Assembly (NCBI GenBank): GCA_007122455.1 | Contig: SKTU01000023.1 | Span: 1-41,633 of the forward strand | DNA from: Haloarculaceae archaeon | Lineage (GTDB): Archaea > Halobacteriota > Halobacteria > Halobacteriales > Haloarculaceae | Direction: 5' to 3' | DNA length: 41,633 nucleotides | Shown here: positions 1,843-38,484 of the stretch, in pieces | Layout of the letters: every line of letters starts with the position of its first letter | Numbering within the stretch: the first letter of the stretch is position 1 | Notes under the pieces: model-generated | Databases searched by the model: none | The model's input: only the letters and a program-made list of their open reading frames with translations | What the model was told of the DNA's origin: nothing | Program-made: the position numbers and the translations under genes

Positions 1843-2235
1843 ATGAGCCAAGCGACGTTCGAGGACGACGACCTGTTCGGCGAGGCCGCGACCGAGATGC
1901 GCGCCGACGTCGAGGAACATCTCGAGGCGGCGAGGGAGTCCCTCCCCGACGCCGACGCCCTCTGGGAGACCGAGGCCGACAACAGCCTCGGCGTACTGAA
2001 CGGTCTGAAAGGTGCACTCGACACCGGCGACGCCGAGGAACACCTTCGGGACGCCAAGAAGTGGTACACGGTGGGACAGAGAGCCGACGCCTTCGAGGAC
2101 GCCGACGACCTCGAGGCCGAGATCGAAGCCCTCGAGGAGCTACTCGAGAAGATCGTCGAGGCTCACGCGCAGGTGAGCGAACTGGCGAGCACGATCCCCG
2201 AACTGAGAGGCGCACTCGAGAGCGACGACGAGTAG
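1843..2235 (+). CDS. DUF5790-like acidic coiled-coil protein
   Basis: This is a 130-residue, strongly acidic, almost entirely helical protein with no membrane segment or cysteine. It matches a haloarchaea-specific family I recall as DUF5790, with features such as DDDLFGEAATEMRADVEEHL, the WETEADNSLGVLNGLK turn and the conserved HLRDAKKWYTVGQRADAF segment. The C-terminal half (about 75-125) has heptad-like Leu/Glu spacing and probably forms a coiled coil. Function is unknown. The creatininase gene ends directly next to it on the other strand (2236), so the two are convergent with no spacer. Confidence 0.72.
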   Translation: MSQATFEDDDLFGEAATEMRADVEEHLEAARESLPDADALWETEADNSLGVLNGLKGALDTGDAEEHLRDAKKWYTVGQRADAFEDADDLEAEIEALEELLEKIVEAHAQVSELASTIPELRGALESDDE

Positions 2236-2943
2236 TCAGCGACGCTCGACCGCCTCGAGGAGGTCGACGAGCGCGTCGGCCGCCTCCGCCAGCAGCGTCT
2301 CTCCCAGCTGTTCGCTCCCGTTTCGGGGATCGCCGACGACGCCGCTATCGGTGAACTCCGCGGAGTCGTACGCGAGGTTCGTCCCGTGGAGCCACTCACC
2401 CCACCCGTCGGCGGCGCCGTCGGCCGCGGCCTCGAGCCGATCGTCGTTTATAAGTGACGGGTGGAGTCGCCGCAGCAGCGCCGTCTCCGCGGGACCGCCG
2501 TGGCCGAGTTCGTCGGTCTCGACCGCGTCGAACCACGTGTACGGAACGGCGTAACCGTCCGTATCGCGGCTGAACCGCCCGCAACACTCACGGAGCGCGT
2601 CGACGTTGCCGCCGTGACCGTTGACGACGACGATCCGGTCGAAGCCGTGAAACGCCAGGCTCTCGATCGTCTCTCGGACGTACGACCGGAACGTCTCCTC
2701 GCGAACCCACAGCGTCCCGTCGAAGGCGCGGTGTTCCTCGGCGACGCCGACGGGGATCGTCGGACCGACGACGACGTCGCCGTCGTACCGATCGGCACCC
2801 TCGGCGGCGATCCCCTCGGCGGTGAACGAATCGAGCCCGAGCGGGGCGTGCGGGCCGTGCTGTTCGGTGCTTCCGACCGGGAGCGCTGCGACGTTCGTCT
2901 CGGCGTCACGGACGTCGGTCCACGTGGCCTCGGCGAGCTGCAT
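2236..2943 (-). CDS. arfB: Creatininase-family amidohydrolase, probable ArfB
   Basis: The 235-residue enzyme has creatininase-family metal-binding features: Glu27, His29 and Asp38 in STEQHGPHAPLGLDSF, His110 in VVNGHGGN, and Glu153 in GHGGPAETALL. In archaea this family includes ArfB, which deformylates 2-amino-5-formylamino-6-ribosylaminopyrimidinone 5'-phosphate in riboflavin and F420 synthesis; haloarchaeal members of this size are often annotated that way. Creatininine or another amide as substrate cannot be excluded. The ATG at 2943 is 27 nt downstream of a clear TATA-like element (minus-strand CTTATATAC, 2966-2974), so longer upstream frames are rejected. Confidence 0.75.
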   Translation of the reverse strand: MQLAEATWTDVRDAETNVAALPVGSTEQHGPHAPLGLDSFTAEGIAAEGADRYDGDVVVGPTIPVGVAEEHRAFDGTLWVREETFRSYVRETIESLAFHGFDRIVVVNGHGGNVDALRECCGRFSRDTDGYAVPYTWFDAVETDELGHGGPAETALLRRLHPSLINDDRLEAAADGAADGWGEWLHGTNLAYDSAEFTDSGVVGDPRNGSEQLGETLLAEAADALVDLLEAVERR

Positions 2944-2965
2944 ACCGGCTCTGGTGGTCGTGAGC

Positions 2966-2974
2966 GTATATAAG
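2966..2974 (-). promoter_or_regulatory. TATA-like element of the creatininase-family gene
   Basis: On the minus strand this reads CTTATATAC, one of the best TATA matches in the window. Its centre is 27 nt from the ATG at 2943, which fixes that start and predicts a leaderless mRNA. Confidence 0.55.
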
Positions 2975-3020
2975 GTGGCGACTACGGAGTCGGAAGCGCG
3001 AAAGAACGAGTGCCCGCCTC

Positions 3021-3554
3021 TCAGGCGATCAGCAGTTCCTCGCCGCGCTCGACCTTGATCGTGGCGGGCGGCGAGATCTTGTTGTAGGCGCGCCGGAAGG
3101 CGTCCTTCGCGACGTCGGCGTCCTCGGGGTGACACCAGATGGTGAAGAGCTGGTCGCCCTTCCGCATCCGGGCGGCGGTACCGACGATCTTGCCGAACGA
3201 CTGTCGCATTCCGTCGGAGACACGGTCGGCGCCGGCGCCGGTCGCCTGCTTGTTCTCCCGAAGTACCTGATGGGGGAACTTCCGGAGGATCATCTTGTAG
3301 TCGCCGTTCTCGCCGAGCTCCTTGAGCATCCGACGGTTCGCCGACAGGCGTGCAGCCTCGAGGGAACCGTGACGGATCTGGACGTCCTCGTCGACGATCA
3401 GGCTGATCTGGACCTCGTAGTCCTCGGGTTCCGCGTCGAAGTTACCCATCTTGTACTGGGCGATCTTCGAGCCCGGGATGCCCGTGATGTACTCTCGTCG
3501 CGTGTACGCGGGCTTGTCGATGTCCCGGTACATTGAGGCGGGCTTGTCACTCAT
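3021..3554 (-). CDS. rpl10e: Ribosomal protein L10e (uL16 family)
   Basis: This 177-residue protein is the archaeal large-subunit protein L10e, equivalent to bacterial L16, which sits near the peptidyl-transferase centre and the A-site tRNA. Typical segments are [34 protein letters not shown], the loop-flanking [31 protein letters not shown] (given by position: about 92-122) and the C-terminal half KGDQLFTIW. Length and ends agree with the family. The ATG at 3554 replaces an upstream ATG of a longer frame because the conserved protein starts here and an AT-rich element (GGATAAAG, 3581-3588) lies at promoter distance. It is transcribed alone; the neighbouring genes are unrelated in function. 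Confidence 0.95.
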
Positions 3555-3635
3555 AGTACGTCGAAAATAGGTGAGTCGGCGGATAAAGCCTTCGAAGCGG
3601 CGCGTTCGTGTCACATCGTATCTCGGAGTCGCAGA

Positions 3636-5273
3636 TCAGTTCGTCTCGGGAGGATCGACCAACACGCCGGGATTCAACACCCACGCCGGATCGAGCACCC
3701 CTTTGACCGCCTGGAGCGACTCGCCGTAGTTTTCCGGAATCTGCTGGGCGTACCACTCCTTGTGGTCCCGTCCGACTGCGTGGTGGTGTGTCGGCGTGAG
3801 ATCGTACGCCATCACGGTGTCGAGCCCGGCGCGTTTGATCCGCTGCCACTGCTCGATGCGCCGGTCCGGATCCGGGTCCCCCGGTGCGCGGAACGTGTAG
3901 TACACCGCCGGTCCGTCGGGGTAGACGTGGGTGAACCGCGTCGAAACGTGACCCATCCCGCATTCGGCTTCGACGGCGTCCCCGAAATTCTCGAGCATCG
4001 TCCCGTGAAACTCGGGGAATCGATCCCACGTGACGGCCGTCTCGACGGTGCCACCGACGACACAGAGCGGGAGGTCGGTATCGACCGAACCGCTCATCTG
4101 GAACGCCCGCCCCCACCGCGCCACGTCGCTGTCCTCGGGACGCTCACGCCCGTATCCGGGACCGTAGTTGTCCGGGCCGTCAGGACACCGGCCGCCCTCC
4201 TGGTCGCAGATCTCCAGCGCGTGTTCGAGGTCGTCGTCGGTCGGTCGCTCCGTCGACTCGAAGCCGAGGATCACGAGCTCCTCGTCGATGTCGTCGAGCC
4301 CGTAGAGGCTCGTCTCGACGCGATCGTGGAGCCGGCAGTTCGCCGGATAGAGCTTCGCCTGAACGATCCGGCGGATCGCCTCCGCAGCCTCCAGTACGCC
4401 GTCGAAGTAGACCGCCGCGTCCGACCGGTAGACGGGCCGCGGTTCGACCTGCATCCACGCCCGCGTGATTACGCCGAGGATCCCTTCGGAGCCACAGACC
4501 AGCCGGTTTGCGTCCGGACCCGCCCCGTGAGCCGGAAGTCGTTGGGTTTCGAAAACGCCGGCCGGTGCGACCATGCGAACACTCTCGACCAACTCGTCGA
4601 TGTGGGTGTACCGCGTCGCGTAGTGACCACCCGATCGGGTGGCGATCCAGCCACCGAGTCCCGACAGCGCGTACGACTGGGGATAATGTCGGAGATGGAG
4701 ATCGTGCGCAGCCAACTGATCGTTGATGTCGGGACCGAGCGTCCCGCCCTCGATCAGCGCCGCGCGGGACTGCTCGTCCACCTCCAGTACCTCGTTCAGT
4801 TCCTTCAGATCGAGCGCGAGCGTCCCCGCGTATTTCGCCCGGAGGTCGCCGTCCGGGGGCCCGGTTCCACCCGCGATACCGGTGCCGCCGGTAACGGGGC
4901 TGACGGCGACGTTCGCCTCGGAGGCCCACGCGAGCGTTTCGACGACCTCCGCTTCGGTCCGCGGCACGGCGACGGCGTCCGGTGCGGGTTCGAAATCGCC
5001 GTGGAACGCGCGGATGTTCTCCGGGCGCGCCATGCCGTACGTTCGCCGGGCGCGAGTCGCGCGATCCGTCGTACAGAACTCCGCGAGCCGCTCGGGAACC
5101 TCGATCGAGGGCTCGGGAACGGTTGCCTCCGCGAGCGGAACCGGATCGAGGACCGGACGTTCCGGAAAGCCGAGCTCGTCCTCCAGGAACGCCTTCCGAT
5201 CGGCGATCGCCTCCTCGTCGATCATCTCGCCGGCGAACCCCCATCCCCACCGGCTACGCGGTTTGGAGCTCAT
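3636..5273 (-). CDS. FAD-binding oxidase related to alkyl-DHAP synthase
   Basis: The 545-residue flavoprotein belongs to the vanillyl-alcohol-oxidase/FAD-linked oxidase family. An N-terminal MSSKPRSRWGWGF start resembles the opening of alkylglycerone-phosphate synthase (AGPS). A FAD-binding PP-loop follows (VSPVTGGTGIAGGTG, about 145-160), then LPQSYALSGLGGWIATRSGGHYATRYTHI-type FAD contacts (about 210-240) and, near residue 505, the three-histidine motif of the AGPS active site in LTPTHHHAVGRDHKEWY. AGPS swaps an acyl for an alkyl chain on DHAP in eukaryotes and some bacteria. Archaeal ether lipids are made by another route, so the substrate here is uncertain; a D-lactate or glycolate dehydrogenase-like role is an alternative. 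The ATG at 5273 gives the AGPS-like N-terminus. Confidence 0.8.
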   Translation of the reverse strand: MSSKPRSRWGWGFAGEMIDEEAIADRKAFLEDELGFPERPVLDPVPLAEATVPEPSIEVPERLAEFCTTDRATRARRTYGMARPENIRAFHGDFEPAPDAVAVPRTEAEVVETLAWASEANVAVSPVTGGTGIAGGTGPPDGDLRAKYAGTLALDLKELNEVLEVDEQSRAALIEGGTLGPDINDQLAAHDLHLRHYPQSYALSGLGGWIATRSGGHYATRYTHIDELVESVRMVAPAGVFETQRLPAHGAGPDANRLVCGSEGILGVITRAWMQVEPRPVYRSDAAVYFDGVLEAAEAIRRIVQAKLYPANCRLHDRVETSLYGLDDIDEELVILGFESTERPTDDDLEHALEICDQEGGRCPDGPDNYGPGYGRERPEDSDVARWGRAFQMSGSVDTDLPLCVVGGTVETAVTWDRFPEFHGTMLENFGDAVEAECGMGHVSTRFTHVYPDGPAVYYTFRAPGDPDPDRRIEQWQRIKRAGLDTVMAYDLTPTHHHAVGRDHKEWYAQQIPENYGESLQAVKGVLDPAWVLNPGVLVDPPETN

Positions 5274-10215: not shown

Positions 10216-10776
10216 CTACGGCGTCGGGAGAAACCGGATCGTCGAAACGAGGCCCTTGGCCACCGCGACGAGCAGCAACACGTAGAGCGCGTTGCCGACG
10301 GTCGAAAAGAGCAGAAACCGGCCGACTGGATAGCGGCTTAGTCCGGCGGGGATGCTCATCAGACAGCGAACGAGCGGGACGGCGTTGGTAACGCAGAGGC
10401 CGGCACCGCCGAACCGCTGGAACGTCCGGGTGACGAACTTCATTCGGCGCTTGCCGACGCGCTTTCGAACGTAGTTCGGGAGCCGCCGGAGATACGGTAC
10501 CCGTCGACGGATCCCGATGAACTCGGGGCGCTCCTCGTTGAACGCCCGATACAGCGTCCACTGACCGAGCGTCGAGGCGACGACACTCCCCGCACAGACC
10601 AAAAGCAGCGACCACCCGGACGGGGAGAGGACAGCGACGTAGCCGACGAACAGCGCACCGGGAGGCGTGAACTTCCCCACGACCATTCCGTCGAAGTAGA
10701 ACAGCACCAACAGAAGTGGCACGACTACCACCGGCAGGAGTGAGAGAACCACACTGACGAGGTCGATCCCGAGCAC
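10216..10776 (-). CDS. DedA/VTT-domain membrane protein
   Basis: The 186-residue integral membrane protein fits the DedA (SNARE-associated, VTT) family, which is linked to lipid flipping and proton-dependent membrane homeostasis. Hydrophobic segments lie near the N-terminus (VVLSLLPVVVVPLLLVLFYF), at about 45-75, and as a C-terminal pair. The family region FGGAGLCVTNAVPLVRCLMSIPAG with its re-entrant Pro/Arg motif and the following GNALYVLLLVAVA are visible; a basic stretch (RKRVGKRRMKF) precedes it. I chose GTG at 10776 because the minus-strand TATA-like TTTAAGT at 10801-10807 is 28 nt before it. A GTG at 10800 would add 8 residues but lies next to the TATA element. The gene is divergent from the DUF6360-like gene. 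Confidence 0.75.
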   Translation of the reverse strand: MLGIDLVSVVLSLLPVVVVPLLLVLFYFDGMVVGKFTPPGALFVGYVAVLSPSGWSLLLVCAGSVVASTLGQWTLYRAFNEERPEFIGIRRRVPYLRRLPNYVRKRVGKRRMKFVTRTFQRFGGAGLCVTNAVPLVRCLMSIPAGLSRYPVGRFLLFSTVGNALYVLLLVAVAKGLVSTIRFLPTP

Positions 10777-33289: not shown

Positions 33290-34054
33290 ATGGCGACGAC
33301 CGACGGCGTGGACCTCCCGCGACGGCTCCGCGTGGAACTCCTCGGCGTCGCTACGCTCGTCGGCGTCGGCCTCGCAGTCGGTACCGCCGTGGTGGCCGTC
33401 GAACCGCGTCGGTGGGCGGTCGGTGCTGCCGCCGCGACCGTCGTCCTCTTCGTCGCCGTTCGGGCCGGGCTTCCGCGGAACCACTCGCCGAGCGGTGGCG
33501 AGATTCGACCGACGATCGGGAGCGCGAACGCGGTGACGCTCCTCCGCGGCGGCGCGATCTGCGCCGTCGCCGGCTTCGTCCTCGCCGAACCCGCGATCGC
33601 GTGGCTCCCCGCCGCGCTGTACGCCGTGGCGGTGGGACTCGACGCCGTCGACGGGGCGATCGCCCGGCGAACCGAGCGAACGGTGCTGGGAGCGCGGCTC
33701 GACGGAGGCGTCGACGCGTACGGGGTCGCGGTCGGTGGTGCAGCTGCAGTGGCGCTCGGCGGGGTTCCGGCGTGGTATCTCCTCGCCGGTGCCGCGTGGC
33801 CGATCTACGCGGGAGCGCTGTGGATTCGACGTCGACGCGGACGGCCGCTGTACGAACTGCCGCCGAGCCGCCTGCGTGGACCGATCGGTGCAGCGCAGAT
33901 GCTCGTGATCGTTGCCGCGCTCGCACCGGGCGTCGACGGCCGCCCCGTCGCCGTCGCGGCCGCGATCGCGCTGGTTCCGCTCCTCGTCGGATTCGGCCGC
34001 GACTGGGCGGCGGCGCCGGGGCGGTGGCCGGTTCACGGCCCGCGACGGGAGTGA
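33290..34054 (+). CDS. CDP-alcohol phosphatidyltransferase family protein
   Basis: The 254-residue membrane enzyme transfers a phosphoalcohol from or to a CDP-linked lipid. It shows the signature DxxDGxxAR followed by GxxxDxxxD: GLDAVDGAIARRTERTVLGA-RLDGGVD. Six hydrophobic segments are visible around it. Between AR and G there are 7 residues instead of the usual 8, so the loop is one residue shorter than in characterised enzymes. In haloarchaea such proteins add inositol-, serine- or glycerol-phosphate head groups to archaetidyl lipids; which is unknown. The ATG at 33290 is the first start after the 78-bp region shared with the histidine phosphatase. Its 3' end overlaps the convergent ParB-like gene by 22 nt. 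Confidence 0.82.
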   Translation: MATTDGVDLPRRLRVELLGVATLVGVGLAVGTAVVAVEPRRWAVGAAAATVVLFVAVRAGLPRNHSPSGGEIRPTIGSANAVTLLRGGAICAVAGFVLAEPAIAWLPAALYAVAVGLDAVDGAIARRTERTVLGARLDGGVDAYGVAVGGAAAVALGGVPAWYLLAGAAWPIYAGALWIRRRRGRPLYELPPSRLRGPIGAAQMLVIVAALAPGVDGRPVAVAAAIALVPLLVGFGRDWAAAPGRWPVHGPRRE

Positions 34055-34770
34055 CAGTCGACCAGGTCCGGATGGTCGGGGCGTTCGACCGGATCGCCGC
34101 GACGGGCCGCCTCGCGGGTCGCCTGCCAGCCCCGGTGGCGCCGGTGAACGAGTACCGGAACGGCGTCGAGATCGAGCACGCGAGCGATGGCGAGTCGGTG
34201 TTGACCGTAACACCGCCAGTAGAGACCGCCGTCGGGACCGACGTCGACGTTTATCTCGTCGAGAACCGTCGCCGAGCGGTGGTAGCCGTTCTCCCGGATC
34301 GAGTCGTACAGCCAATCGATCTCCGCGGCTCGCGCCTCGAAGCCGTCCATCGAGGTGTATCCCCACGCGTTGCCGAACCGCCGGAGCTGATCGGCGAACG
34401 CCTCCCGAAGCGGCGTCTCCTCCCACGGTCGTCCGTCCGTGAATCGGGCGACGATCGCCAGCGGGACTCGTCGATCGGCGAACCGCTCCCCGGATCGGTA
34501 CCACTCACCGCCCTCGACGCGCCCCCACTGCGGGTAGCTCGGAGCCGATTCGAGGAGACTCCACTCGACAGCCGTCGGATCGATCCACCGAACTGCGAAC
34601 GGATCGGCGTCCGTCCACCGCGTTGCGTCGATCGAACGAACCCCACGGTGAACGGTACGGTAGGCGTCGACCGGAAACCGACGCCGAAGCGGCTCGGTGA
34701 GAACCCGTCGAACCGCGACGACGGCTCGCCCACGAAGCCGCGTCAGCGAACCGGGGCCTTGCTCGGTCAC
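34033..34770 (-). CDS. ParB-like domain protein of unknown role
   Basis: The 245-residue protein contains, near its C-terminus, a ParB/sulfiredoxin-like motif: LYWRCYGQHRLAIARVLDLDAVPVLVHRRHR, with the typical GQHR box and the IPV-like follow-up (about 190-222). The N-terminal 120 residues are basic-acidic mixed and contain PVDAYRTVHRGVRSID. The C-terminal 25 residues are rich in Arg and Asp. In ParB/Srx folds this motif forms a nucleotide-binding site; there is no HTH, so it is not a chromosome-partition ParB. It starts with GTG at 34770 overlapping the stop of the upstream membrane protein gene by 4 nt, so the two are translated together. Conserved only in haloarchaea as far as I can tell. 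Confidence 0.6.
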   Translation of the reverse strand: MTEQGPGSLTRLRGRAVVAVRRVLTEPLRRRFPVDAYRTVHRGVRSIDATRWTDADPFAVRWIDPTAVEWSLLESAPSYPQWGRVEGGEWYRSGERFADRRVPLAIVARFTDGRPWEETPLREAFADQLRRFGNAWGYTSMDGFEARAAEIDWLYDSIRENGYHRSATVLDEINVDVGPDGGLYWRCYGQHRLAIARVLDLDAVPVLVHRRHRGWQATREAARRGDPVERPDHPDLVDCHSRRGP

Positions 34771-35111
34771 TCTCGACGAAGGAGCGCGATCAGGACGACG
34801 ACGAGTACCACCTGTGCGAGTTTGTCGACGGCGTGGAGCGTCGGTACCGGTGGAACGTCGTTGAGGAGATACCAGAGCACGATCTGGCCGGCGGTGAAGG
34901 GAACGCCGAGCGTGTAGACGAGCCGCCGGCGGTAGTCGACGAGAACGGCGACGATACCGCCGGCGAAACCTGCGGCCGCGAACAGAAACGCGATGCCGAA
35001 GCCGCCGGGGAAGTCGGCGATCCCGAGCCAGAGATGTATCGCCCCGGTGACGGCCGCCGCGACGATCCCGAGCCAGCACAGCGAGGATATCGATTCCGTC
35101 TCTACGTTCAT
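34767..35111 (-). CDS. Small four-helix membrane protein
   Basis: The 114-residue protein has four hydrophobic segments: LCWLGIVAAAVTGAIHLWLGIA, GIAFLFAAAGFAGGIVAVLV, YTLGVPFTAGQIVLWYLL and LAQVVLVVVLIALL, with basic loops (DYRRRL). It has no recognised catalytic residue. Many haloarchaea have similar small membrane proteins of the DUF7475 type; I cannot confirm the family. Its ATG is at 35111 and its stop overlaps the start of the ParB-like gene, so the membrane protein and the ParB-like protein probably work together. The 151-bp region to the right is shared with the operon at 35263 on the other strand. Confidence 0.7.
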   Translation of the reverse strand: MNVETESISSLCWLGIVAAAVTGAIHLWLGIADFPGGFGIAFLFAAAGFAGGIVAVLVDYRRRLVYTLGVPFTAGQIVLWYLLNDVPPVPTLHAVDKLAQVVLVVVLIALLRRE

Positions 35112-35262: not shown

Positions 35263-36285
35263 ATGAGTGCCGTGGGGGGAGCAGCGGTACGGTTTGTCGC
35301 CCCGAACGAAGTGGAGGTTGTCGACCACGGTGCGGCCGAACCGACAGCCGGGGAGGTCACCGTCGAGACGCGTTGCTCCGCGATCAGCGCCGGCACCGAA
35401 CTGCTCGTCTACCGCGGCGAAGTCGATGGCTCGATGGCGGCCGACGAGAAGCTGCCGGGGCTCGGCGGAACGCTGTCGTACCCGCTCCGCTACGGCTACG
35501 CCGCCGTCGGTGACGTCGTCGACGTCGGGTCGGGCGTCGACCCGACGTGGATCGGGCGCCCGGTCTTCGGGTTCAATCCCCACGAGAGTTCCTTTACCGC
35601 CCGTCCCGAGGACCTGGTTGCAGTCCCCGATGGGATCTCCTACGAGCGGGCGGCGCTGCTCGCGAACGCCGAGACCGCGGTGAACTTCAACCTCGACGCC
35701 GCCCCTCGCATCGGAGAACGGATCGCGGTCTTCGGTCAGGGCGTCGTCGGGCTGCTGACGACGGCACTGCTCGCGGAAGCGCCGATCGAGACGCTCGTCG
35801 CCGTCGAGCCGAACCCGAAGCGACGATCGCTCGCCGCGACGATGGGCGCCGACCGGGTCGTCGACCCGAGCACGGAGGATCCGGTCGCCGCCGTACGCGA
35901 CGCAACCGGAGGCGTCGACATCGCGATCGAGGTGAGCGGCCGTCCTTCGACGCTGGAAACGGCCGTCGAGTCGACCCGCTACGACGGTCGCGTCGTCGTC
36001 GGCTCGTGGTACGGAACGAAGCGCGAACCGGTCGCGCTGGGGGGGCGGTTTCACCGCGGTCGGGTCGACATCGAGTCGAGCCAGGTGAGCACGATCGACC
36101 CCTCGCTCCGCGGCCGGTGGGACCGACAACGCCGTCACAGCGTCGCGTGGAACCGGCTCACGTCGATCAACGTCGACGCACTGATCACCCACCGCCTCCC
36201 GGTCGCGGAAGCGCCGTCGGCCTACCGGCTGCTCGGCGACGACCGGACGGACGCCGTCCAGATACTCCTCACCTACGAGCCATGA
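35263..36285 (+). CDS. Medium-chain dehydrogenase without zinc-ligand motif
   Basis: The 340-residue protein is a medium-chain dehydrogenase/reductase. The N-terminal GroES-like domain includes CSAISAGTELLVYRGEVDG and LSYPLRYGYAAVGDVVDVGSG; here the GHE box that brings the catalytic zinc in alcohol dehydrogenases is absent. This resembles the bacteriochlorophyllide (BchC-like) branch, which also lacks it. The Rossmann part is IAVFGQGVVGLLTTALLAEA with Glu-Pro-Asn (VEPNPKRR) at the end of the second strand, suggesting NAD or NADP with unclear preference. The product is unknown. It is the first gene of a four-gene operon; its stop overlaps the next ATG by 4 nt (ATGA). Confidence 0.82.
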   Translation: MSAVGGAAVRFVAPNEVEVVDHGAAEPTAGEVTVETRCSAISAGTELLVYRGEVDGSMAADEKLPGLGGTLSYPLRYGYAAVGDVVDVGSGVDPTWIGRPVFGFNPHESSFTARPEDLVAVPDGISYERAALLANAETAVNFNLDAAPRIGERIAVFGQGVVGLLTTALLAEAPIETLVAVEPNPKRRSLAATMGADRVVDPSTEDPVAAVRDATGGVDIAIEVSGRPSTLETAVESTRYDGRVVVGSWYGTKREPVALGGRFHRGRVDIESSQVSTIDPSLRGRWDRQRRHSVAWNRLTSINVDALITHRLPVAEAPSAYRLLGDDRTDAVQILLTYEP

Positions 36286-36653
36286 GCTACGAACTCACCG
36301 TCACCGAACCGTTCGTTGCACAGCATTTCCTCACGGTTCCGGATCCGGGACCGGAAGGGACGCTCCACTCGCACTCCTTCGAGGCGATCGCGACGTTTCG
36401 CGGACCGGAGCTCGGCGAGTACGGCTATCTGCTGGACATCGACGCCGCCATCGCGGCGGTGTCTGCGGCCGTCGGCGGCTACCGCGACGAGACGCTCAAC
36501 GACCGCCTGCCGGGGAATCCGAGCTGTGAGCGCCTCGCAGCGGCGCTACACGCCGACGTCGCCGAGCGCGTGACGGCACCGGCAGTCGAGGAACTGGAGC
36601 TCACCGTCCGCGAGGACGACACTGCGACGGTCAGTTACACCGCGCCGCTCTGA
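36282..36653 (+). CDS. PTPS/QueD-fold protein lacking the catalytic residues
   Basis: The 123-residue protein has the 6-pyruvoyl-tetrahydropterin synthase fold. The zinc ligands are kept (His15 in FVAQHFLTV, His29 and His31 in TLHSHSFEA), as are the NPSCERLA helix and a C-terminal Glu (about 111) in place of the pterin-anchoring Glu. The catalytic Cys that precedes the HxH pair is missing (PEGTLHSH), and the usual LDH with the catalytic His is LND (ETLNDRLPG). It therefore should not do the PTPS or QueD reaction as known; a binding role or a different lyase reaction is possible. It overlaps the dehydrogenase by 4 nt and the glycosyltransferase start by 1 nt. Confidence 0.82.
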   Translation: MSYELTVTEPFVAQHFLTVPDPGPEGTLHSHSFEAIATFRGPELGEYGYLLDIDAAIAAVSAAVGGYRDETLNDRLPGNPSCERLAAALHADVAERVTAPAVEELELTVREDDTATVSYTAPL

Positions 36654-37687
36654 TGCGCGTCGCGCTCGTCGTCGCCGGGGAACTCTCAACGACGTCCGGG
36701 GGGTATCTCTACGATCGGCGGCTTCTCGAGCGGCTCATCGAACGGGGCCACGACGTCGAGGTGATCTCGATCCCGCATCGTAGCTACGGCGGCCGCCTGC
36801 TCGAGAACGTACGCACGCGAGCCGTCCCCTCGTCTGACGTCGACGTCGTCGTCGAGGACGGCCTCGCACATCCCGCGCTCCTGCGGACGAACCGACAGCT
36901 CGATCGGCCGATCGTCGCGCTACTGCACATGGTCGCGAGCGCGACCGTCGACGGGATCCGACGTCGGGCCGTCGGCGCCGTCGAGCGACGATTCCTGCGC
37001 AGCGTCGACGCGGCGATCCACAACAGCGTCGACACCGAAAAGCGAGCGTGCCGTCTCGGTGCACCCGAACGGAGCGTGGTCATCCCACCTGCCGGCGACC
37101 GGTTCGACCCCGAAATCAGCCCGGCGGCGATCGGGCGCCGTGCCCACGAGGGGGCGCTCGAAATCGCCTTTCTCGGAAACGTCGTCGAGCGGAAGGGGCT
37201 TCGACCGCTCGTCGACGGACTGGCGCGGACGGAACTCGACTGGCGGTTGACGGTCGTCGGCGATCCGACAGTCGAACCCAGGTACGTCGAGCGCGTCCGC
37301 GAGCGCGTGCATTCGGCGGGAGTCGGGGACCGGATCGAGTGGGCCGGACGGCGCTCCGACGAGTCAGTCGCCGAAATCCTCCGAGCCACGGACGTCCTCG
37401 CGGTCCCGTCGAGCTACGAACCGTTCGGGATCGTCTATCTGGAAGCGATGGGGTTCGGGTGCGTTCCGATCGCTGCCCGAAACGGCGGCGCCGACGAGTT
37501 CGTCCGTGACGGCGAAACCGGGTACACCGTCCCCTCGGAGCCGGCTGTCATCGCGGACCGGATCGGTCGGCTCGCCGACCGTGATCGGCTCGAGCGGATG
37601 GGGATCGCCGCTCGCGGGGCGTACGGTCGACAGCCAGGGTGGGAACAGCGCCTCGACCGTGCCGTCGACTTCCTGGAGGCGATATGA
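36653..37687 (+). CDS. GT4-type glycosyltransferase
   Basis: The 344-residue enzyme has two Rossmann-like halves of the GT-B fold. The N-terminal GELSTTSGGYLYDRRLLERL binds the acceptor. The C-terminal half has IAFLGNVVERKGLRPLVDGL (start of donor-binding domain) and the E-x7-E motif in SSYEPFGIVYLEAMGFGCVP and the GGADEFV stretch. It belongs to family GT4, which retains anomeric configuration and uses a nucleotide sugar. The acceptor is not known. It sits in the tight operon between the PTPS-fold protein and a methyltransferase; its start shares one base with the PTPS-fold stop, and its end overlaps the next ATG by 4 nt. Confidence 0.88.
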   Translation: MRVALVVAGELSTTSGGYLYDRRLLERLIERGHDVEVISIPHRSYGGRLLENVRTRAVPSSDVDVVVEDGLAHPALLRTNRQLDRPIVALLHMVASATVDGIRRRAVGAVERRFLRSVDAAIHNSVDTEKRACRLGAPERSVVIPPAGDRFDPEISPAAIGRRAHEGALEIAFLGNVVERKGLRPLVDGLARTELDWRLTVVGDPTVEPRYVERVRERVHSAGVGDRIEWAGRRSDESVAEILRATDVLAVPSSYEPFGIVYLEAMGFGCVPIAARNGGADEFVRDGETGYTVPSEPAVIADRIGRLADRDRLERMGIAARGAYGRQPGWEQRLDRAVDFLEAI

Positions 37688-38484
37688 ACCACGTCGCCTA
37701 CCTCGAGGCGAAGCGGACGGTCGACGACCGCGCGATCGACCGGGAGACGCTGGCGGCGGTCGTCGACGGACTGCCGCCGAATCCGCGCGTTCTAGAGCTC
37801 GGGGCGGGAACGGTGACCATGGTCGAGCGCTGCTACGATCGACGGCTGCTCGACGAAGGGGAGTGGCTCGCCGTCGACCGCTGTCGCGCGGCACTCCAGC
37901 GAGGGAGGGATCGGCTCGCCGAACGGCCCGAGTCGACCGTCGAGGGCGACCGCGTCGAACTCGGTTCACTCACCGTTCGGTTCCTCGCCGAGGACGCCTT
38001 CGCCTCCGCGACACGTCTGGCAGCGGCGGGCGAGAGCTTCGATCTCCTGGTCGGCTGTGCGTTCTTCGATCTGGTCGACGTCGATCGGCTGTCGACGTTC
38101 GAACCACTGAGCGATCGGCTGTACGCGCCGATCACCTACGACGGGGTGACGGCGTTCTCCCCGTCGGATCCGGACGACGAGCTCGTGCTCTCGACGTATC
38201 GGGAGCACATGGAAACGTGTCGTCCCGGTACTCCGGACGGCGGCGCTCGGCTCTGCGAACGTCTCGCGTCGATCGAGCGGGTCGCTCCCTCGCCGTGGGT
38301 GATCGCCCCACCGTACACGACCGACGAATCGCGGGTGGTCGAACACGTGCTGAAGACCATCGAGGCGTCGCTCGCGGAGCTGGGAGTCGACGCGACGGCG
38401 TGGACGAACCGACGCCGCGGCCAGCTCGAATCCGGGTCGCTCGGCTACCGGGCCGAAAACGTCGACGTCTACGGACGGCTCTAG
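37684..38484 (+). CDS. SAM-dependent methyltransferase
   Basis: The 266-residue class I methyltransferase has motif I as RVLELGAGTVTMVERCYDR and the acidic end of the second strand in WLAVDRCRAALQ. Motif IV is DLLVGCAFFDLVDVDRL, and motif post-I is visible as VRFLAEDAF. A longer C-terminal part (about 150-266) carries AFSPSDPDDELVLSTYREHM and a region of substrate-binding type. The methyl acceptor is unknown. It is the last gene of the four-gene operon, overlapping the glycosyltransferase stop by 4 nt. Its stop lies a few bases from the convergent tatC end (38481), with 4-nt overlap. Start ATG 37684 is the overlap-type start. Confidence 0.85.
   Translation: MNHVAYLEAKRTVDDRAIDRETLAAVVDGLPPNPRVLELGAGTVTMVERCYDRRLLDEGEWLAVDRCRAALQRGRDRLAERPESTVEGDRVELGSLTVRFLAEDAFASATRLAAAGESFDLLVGCAFFDLVDVDRLSTFEPLSDRLYAPITYDGVTAFSPSDPDDELVLSTYREHMETCRPGTPDGGARLCERLASIERVAPSPWVIAPPYTTDESRVVEHVLKTIEASLAELGVDATAWTNRRRGQLESGSLGYRAENVDVYGRL

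Follow-up and report, generated by a model that had tools for sequence, protein, structure and literature searches.

A run of four overlapping genes in a Haloarculaceae archaeon encodes a dehydrogenase of the medium-chain dehydrogenase/reductase (MDR) family, a protein with the fold of 6-pyruvoyltetrahydropterin synthase (PTPS), a family 4 glycosyltransferase (GT4) and a methyltransferase. We propose, with a probability of roughly 0.6, that this run belongs to a dedicated GTP-derived pathway which is entered through GTP cyclohydrolase III in haloarchaea and through GTP cyclohydrolase II in bacteria and in two archaeal stretches from outside the haloarchaea, found by a search of the wider phylum (L203 and L207). 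The most probable product is a compound of pterin or pyrimidine type that carries a sugar and a methyl group and is perhaps linked to a lipid. The run lies in the window, by which we mean the whole stretch of DNA analysed (41,633 nt; assembly GCA_007122455.1, contig SKTU01000023.1, positions 1 to 41,633, forward strand). The best evidence for the entry point is a reading frame in L207 that fuses GTP cyclohydrolase II to the MDR dehydrogenase, together with the occurrence of unrelated cyclohydrolases in the bacterial and haloarchaeal clusters. The initial annotation of this DNA had suggested a glycosylated, methylated pterin-like small molecule; a GTP-derived compound is indeed likely and the addition of a sugar and a methyl group fits, but the precursor it assumed is probably wrong.

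Exchange of GTP cyclohydrolases within the cluster

Our comparison covered 67 haloarchaeal stretches (60 from genomes, six plasmid loci and the window), in which genes were called and grouped into families with our own scripts, and 88 bacterial loci, namely eight plasmid loci and the best 80, all bacterial by title, of at least 579 confirmed genome stretches. The bacterial counts are best tblastn matches within up to 20 kb and may include a paralogue in a few loci; many loci are truncated by contig ends, the 80 genome loci are the closest matches to a single query, and the counts are not frequencies for bacteria overall. With the same queries, GTP cyclohydrolase III was found in 37 of the 67 haloarchaeal stretches and in none of the 88 bacterial loci, and GTP cyclohydrolase II in 48 of the 88 bacterial loci and in none of the 67 haloarchaeal stretches. 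Unrelated cyclohydrolases are exchanged within the same cluster, III in haloarchaea and II in bacteria. The phylum search returned a match in 67 of 392 genomes, and six stretches from orders other than that of the window (L202 to L207) have an MDR match adjoining the PTPS gene. Among these, L203 carries in a row genes for the methyltransferase, GTP cyclohydrolase II, the MDR, the PTPS-fold protein and the GT4, with a creatininase gene further on. In L207 a single reading frame of 577 codons (1990-3723) holds GTP cyclohydrolase II (residues 14-178, 3.2e-66) and the MDR, and is followed by the PTPS and GT4 genes. PTPS matches in L199-L201, L208 and L209, where no other cluster gene was found, were taken as other subfamilies.

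Since the cluster cyclohydrolases are of types III and II, the precursor is most likely a formamido- or diaminopyrimidine ribotide, and entry is likely to be by a riboflavin-type pyrimidine and not by dihydroneopterin triphosphate, the precursor assumed in the initial annotation, which the cluster does not support. That annotation had also counted on MptD at 1.4 kb to supply pterin precursor for the set. The gene is real (1428-1781, PF04038, 5.2e-38), but 33 kb separate it from the set and none of the 66 other stretches contains a relative, so that nothing ties it to these genes. A product made from dihydroneopterin triphosphate by a route of the GTP cyclohydrolase I type, a glycosylated and methylated pterin like the cyanobacterial pterin glycosides, would suit the PTPS fold with its conserved Glu111 and three histidines, the GT4, the methyltransferase and the presence of MptD in the window. 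We nevertheless regard this origin as unlikely, as the cyclohydrolases in the clusters are of type II or III, one of them fused to the MDR (no search by name for GTP cyclohydrolase I was made), and the catalytic Cys and Asp-His pair of QueD are replaced.

The same enzymes could instead form an additional riboflavin supply operon with unrelated passengers, given that cyclohydrolase II or III, RibD_C and creatininase all belong to riboflavin routes. This appears highly improbable to us: the 3,4-dihydroxy-2-butanone 4-phosphate (DHBP) synthase domain is absent from all three cluster GTP cyclohydrolase II proteins tested, both cluster RibD proteins tested have the reductase domain only and no deaminase domain, and the near-constant core of the clusters is the MDR plus the PTPS-fold protein. 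Two or more cyclohydrolase III copies were counted by hand in 28 of the 32 genomes with a cluster cyclohydrolase III, and in 36 of the 65 genomes with a PTPS gene as opposed to 7 of the 81 without one, counts that may include fragments (for example in G068). In the window genome (87% complete), a single match to GTP cyclohydrolase III was found, and it lies on contig C79. As a separate observation, L066 encodes a 128-codon protein (10260-10646; family also in L071) with a partial GTP cyclohydrolase III match (2e-15) between its CDP-alcohol transferase and MDR genes, and four genomes of the same genus (G070-G073) gave no cyclohydrolase III match.

Conservation of the gene neighbourhood

Relatives of the PTPS gene are present in 65 of the 146 genomes of the window's haloarchaeal family and relatives of the methyltransferase gene in 64; they occur together in 63, the methyltransferase alone in G102 and the PTPS alone in G106 and G129 (52% and 67% complete). 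Counts over 63 refer to the stretches with a called PTPS gene, which leaves out L047, L077, L089 and L092 and includes both L033 and L043 (the same record); counts over 61 omit the window and L043. An MDR gene lies directly upstream of the PTPS gene, on the same strand, in 56 of 63 stretches; as the next gene downstream, 38 stretches have a GT4 gene of the first family and 22 the methyltransferase gene. In the 61 other stretches we found relatives of the MDR gene in 57, of the methyltransferase in 57, of a cytidine diphosphate (CDP)-alcohol transferase in 47, of a DUF7475 gene in 43 and of the first GT4 family in 37, whereas, for the nine remaining genes called in the window beyond 28.4 kb, the corresponding counts are 0 to 6. 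PTPS-linked gene families recur together more than expected by chance. A tie between the four genes and the downstream TatC genes was rejected, as the latter recur in only 4 and 6 of the 61 stretches.

The neighbour overlaps of 4, 1 and 4 nt bear out the coordinates and single strand first given for the run, and the retention of the set across stretches supports its description as one functional unit. The conserved neighbourhood is wider than these four genes and includes CDP-alcohol phosphatidyltransferase, DUF7475, Gfo/Idh oxidoreductase and GTP cyclohydrolase III genes (families found in 52, 48, 48 and 36 of the 67 stretches, respectively). The first two are present in the window and had been missed in the initial annotation (Table 1), and relatives of the cluster add GTP cyclohydrolase III or II. 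Further families over the 67 stretches are weakly sulfatase-like (29; 21 bits, below the Pfam cut-off of 25), without a Pfam match (28), a second GT4 family (21) and a PAP2 phosphatase (18), with Pfam run on family representatives and the PAP2 label taken from record annotation. The two GT4 families are mutually exclusive, the first occurring in 38 and the second in 20 of the 63 stretches and both together in none. An MDR gene was also found in eight of nine stretches (L210-L218) from other families of the window's order.

Table 1. Genes of the window discussed in the text
Feature	Position	Strand	Evidence
MDR-family dehydrogenase, BchC-like	35263..36285	+	ADH_zinc_N 7.8e-19 (Pfam)
PTPS-fold protein, putative archaeal counterpart of PTPS-IV	36282..36653	+	PF01242 1.7e-17 (Pfam)
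GT4 glycosyltransferase	36653..37687	+	Glycos_transf_1 7.2e-28 (Pfam)
Class I S-adenosylmethionine (SAM)-dependent methyltransferase, divergent	37684..38484	+	Methyltransf_25 0.0079, below cut-off (Pfam), and predicted fold
CDP-alcohol phosphatidyltransferase, member of the conserved neighbourhood	33290..34054	+	PF01066 2.3e-11
DUF7475 membrane protein, recurrent neighbour	34767..35111	-	PF24287 1.2e-10

Further observations concern individual loci. L086 (G128) and L088 (G125) hold a second cluster type of cyclohydrolase III, MDR, PTPS and a small protein (family c49), with no GT4 or methyltransferase gene directly behind, and both genomes hold another PTPS copy. In L092 (G020:C7:104292-104656) the PTPS match is in two pieces with an internal TGA, possibly a decayed copy. 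The Gfo/Idh family member of L031 (4916-6886) is 656 codons long and annotated as an aldo/keto reductase, which suggests a fused protein. In the window, a called protein between the CDP-alcohol transferase and DUF7475 genes (34033-34770, minus strand) has no Pfam match and no relatives in the other 61 stretches. The creatininase queries matched five haloarchaeal stretches, among them the window, whose creatininase-family gene (2236-2943, minus strand; PF02633, 2.5e-66) lies 32 kb from the PTPS gene; the family also has members in L031, L064, L092 and L093.

The set is not confined to haloarchaea. Searches of plasmids with the window PTPS and GT4 returned haloarchaeal records only, and bacteria were reached with a fragment of SCO6650, which matched 22 plasmid records; eight bacterial records among them were examined. 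The relatives on plasmids and in genomes share the gene order of the haloarchaeal cluster, with the sole exception of the plasmid locus L098, a PTPS gene without a cluster. In the 88 bacterial loci, tblastn found the core in the form of PTPS (88), MDR (87), GT4 (84), methyltransferase (81) and CDP-alcohol transferase (75), accompanied by LPG_synthase_TM (54), RibD_C (52), creatininase (41) and an annotated sulfatase (23), the query for which matched nothing in Pfam at 0.01. Of the 88 loci, 74 contain cyclohydrolase II, RibD_C or creatininase, singly or in combination, and the MDR lies directly upstream of the PTPS in 85. Alternatively, the genes could serve a polar lipid or surface glycan pathway whose CDP-alcohol transferase and GT4 produce a glycophospholipid, the PTPS-fold protein having been co-opted for a different reaction. 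This would account for the frequency of the CDP-alcohol transferase and of the flippase-like LPG_synthase_TM in bacteria and for the recurrence of PAP2 and a second GT4 in haloarchaea. We think this quite unlikely, because it leaves the cyclohydrolases II and III, RibD_C, creatininase and the fused frame unexplained.

Profile comparisons show that the MDR and the CDP-alcohol transferase match across the two domains. Searched with a profile of seven bacterial cluster MDRs, the window genome gives the window MDR at 1.5e-67 and its next MDR at 46 bits; aligned identities to the bacterial cluster MDRs are 31-35%. For a profile of four bacterial CDP-alcohol transferases, the window gene is the only match in its genome (2.7e-21). 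A tree of 58 haloarchaeal, 37 bacterial (every second) and five other archaeal MDRs, from which the L204 MDR (in two pieces) was omitted, places an archaeal clade (support 0.992) beside a bacterial clade (0.998), with a support of 0.563 for the joint clade.

Properties of the cluster enzymes

From its sequence, the PTPS-fold protein appears to be the archaeal counterpart of subfamily PTPS-IV (COG0720). Its best solved relative is SCO6650 of Streptomyces (3d7j, 8.7e-05; QueD, 0.18), and the structure prediction that had been proposed as a check gave a confident model (pLDDT, the predicted local distance difference test, 97.3) whose best fold match is likewise 3d7j, with a template modelling (TM) score of 0.92 compared to 0.81 for QueD. 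A bacterial PTPS-IV profile found matches in 14 of 21 genomes, down to 6.6e-15. His15, His29 and His31, which we take to be zinc ligands, are conserved in 62, 62 and 63 of the 63 haloarchaeal proteins, and Glu111, presumably the ring-binding C-terminal Glu, is kept in 62 of these and in all 87 bacterial proteins (87 of the 88 bacterial loci had a PTPS gene placed in the called-gene family). The position of the QueD catalytic Cys holds Glu in 63/63 haloarchaeal and Ala in 87/87 bacterial proteins; the QueD Asp-His pair aligns with Arg68-Asp69, Asp69 being present in 63/63 haloarchaeal proteins; and the third His position, kept in haloarchaea, is Ala in 87/87 bacterial ones. The window protein carries the motif PGPEG and lacks the PTPS-IV signature FGPAQ, and an intermediate FGPE motif occurs in L202, L205 and L206. 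Also missing are three motifs given in PMC5041015: the QueD/PTPS-I motif CxxxHGH (TIGR03367 score 21.8 bits, cut-off 89.25), the PTPS-III motif ExxHGH (the window has ExxxHSH, in which one more residue separates the Glu from the His pair) and the motif CxxxxxHGH. A queuosine-like base, which the initial annotation had raised, is unlikely because none of the 150 cluster proteins compared retains the Cys of the QueD motif (no search by name for QueC, QueE or QueF beside the clusters was made). Its remark that the dehydrogenase and the PTPS-fold protein both deviate from their families holds.

The best NCBIfam model for the MDR is BchC, the bacteriochlorophyllide dehydrogenase (TIGR01202, 1e-24), yet the score falls far under the cut-off (87.2 vs 291.25 bits), and an identity as BchC or threonine dehydrogenase was rejected on NCBIfam cut-offs. 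Read by eye on the alignment with bacterial cluster MDRs, Ser and Tyr occupy positions that we take to be those of the catalytic zinc ligands of zinc alcohol dehydrogenases, and the MDR apparently lacks these ligands. Butanediol, sorbitol and xylitol dehydrogenases are among the best solved matches of the MDR alignment profile, mainly over the cofactor domain. The methyltransferase model (pLDDT 96.7) resembles general class I methyltransferases, with TM scores of at most 0.61 among the 50 matches listed, and its identity to bacterial cluster methyltransferases is 19-24%. Comparison of the CDP-alcohol transferase with solved structures gave two weak matches, choline/ethanolamine phosphotransferases (0.0019 and 0.031).

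Parts of the bacterial neighbourhood are already known. One study gives PTPS-IV the FGPAQ signature and names RibD_C and PF00925 as neighbours, calling the latter FolE2 (PMC5445326), whereas Pfam names PF00925 GTP cyclohydrolase II. SCO6655, a GTP cyclohydrolase II, is listed by another paper in a table of S. coelicolor genes that mostly rise in stationary phase (PMC2853524); from gene numbering and L097 we infer that SCO6649-SCO6655 are the same cluster. A third states as unpublished that PTPS-IV acts in coenzyme F420 synthesis and calls the role of PTPS-V unclear (PMC5041015). A role in making F420 or a related deazaflavin would fit this statement and the neighbouring RibD_C and cyclohydrolase II genes. 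We consider it very unlikely: cluster-bearing genera include Halomonas, Salinicola and Variovorax, which are not known to make F420, and we know of no role in that pathway for a GT4, a methyltransferase or a CDP-alcohol transferase, although no search for CofG or CofH was made.

Proposed pathway and comparison with known systems

The product and every step after the cyclohydrolase are proposed here from enzyme classes. GTP cyclohydrolase III or II would form a 2-amino-4-oxo pyrimidine ribotide, in the window organism presumably through the sole GTP cyclohydrolase III found, that on contig C79. The MDR would then oxidise the ribose-derived chain, an early position suggested by the fused frame of L207 and the polyol-dehydrogenase-like matches. 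The PTPS-fold protein may bind the 2-amino-4-oxo ring via its conserved C-terminal Glu, and its metal site could close the ring or modify the side chain on the way to a pterin-type product. A sugar would be added by the GT4 and a methyl cap by the methyltransferase, and the CDP-alcohol transferase would create a phosphodiester link, probably with a lipid. Should the substrate be the ribityl form, haloarchaea would have to draw on a reductase encoded at another place in their genomes. Pterins keep the 2-amino group, and the product expected here keeps it as well.

A more far-reaching version of this scheme would make pterins without GTP cyclohydrolase I and end in a class of pterin lipids common to bacteria and archaea. 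In it, cyclohydrolase II or III would give the pyrimidine ribotide, RibD_C would reduce C1' and the MDR would oxidise C2', two reactions that in sum would amount to the Amadori step of cyclohydrolase I. The ring or side chain would be completed by the rewired PTPS-fold protein, and the CDP-alcohol transferase would attach the glycosylated, methylated product to a lipid of the membrane. We consider this version rather unlikely.

Several observations weigh against a dedicated pathway from cyclohydrolase II or III. The cyclohydrolase III gene is absent from the window and from 28 of the 63 haloarchaeal stretches, and in G051, G053, G055 and G074 the cluster copy is the only one found and may therefore also serve riboflavin synthesis. 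RibD_C and LPG_synthase_TM were found in 0/67 haloarchaeal stretches, which therefore lack genes for the reductase and flippase-like steps. A single genome, 61% complete, is the source of the fused frame, and an assembly error is possible. With the bacterial PTPS-IV profile, the window PTPS is the sole hit in the window genome, though a weak one (1.2e-4). The corresponding methyltransferase profile does not pick up the window methyltransferase, and the cluster methyltransferase is its top hit in 10 of the 14 PTPS-bearing genomes. Both GT4 families are missing from five of the 63 haloarchaeal stretches, and no MDR match was found in L217. Finally, our literature search, for which most subscription papers were out of reach, found no product; it found no haloarchaeal counterpart either.

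A PTPS gene in 65 of the 146 genomes of one haloarchaeal family and in a large group of bacteria (at least 579 confirmed stretches, of which the best 80 are all bacterial by title) points to a widespread metabolite. Because the exchange of cyclohydrolases and the cyclohydrolase II-MDR frame indicate where the pathway starts, the orphan PTPS-IV family becomes directly testable, Streptomyces being one suitable host.

Among known systems, the entry into riboflavin synthesis shares the enzyme families of the clusters (GTP cyclohydrolase II or III, the creatininase-type deformylase ArfB and RibD_C), which are joined here to the PTPS-fold protein, MDR, GT4, methyltransferase and CDP-alcohol transferase. 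Cyanopterin-like glycosides of cyanobacteria consist of a pterin with sugars, one of them methylated, and in this resemble the product that we propose; they differ in being made from GTP cyclohydrolase I products, and we know of no CDP-alcohol transferase for them. QueD and the other known PTPS types have in common with the cluster protein the tunnel fold, the histidines and the C-terminal Glu. The closest likeness is to the PTPS-IV cluster of SCO6650, which has the same MDR-PTPS-GT4-methyltransferase order, a CDP-alcohol transferase and a PTPS-fold protein that also lacks the catalytic Cys. In contrast to bacterial PTPS-IV, the haloarchaeal proteins carry GPEGxxHSH instead of FGPAQxLHGAT and keep the third His, and their stretches contain cyclohydrolase III instead of II; of the RibD_C and PF00925 neighbours, neither occurs in any of the 67 haloarchaeal stretches, and PF00925 is found in L203 and L207.

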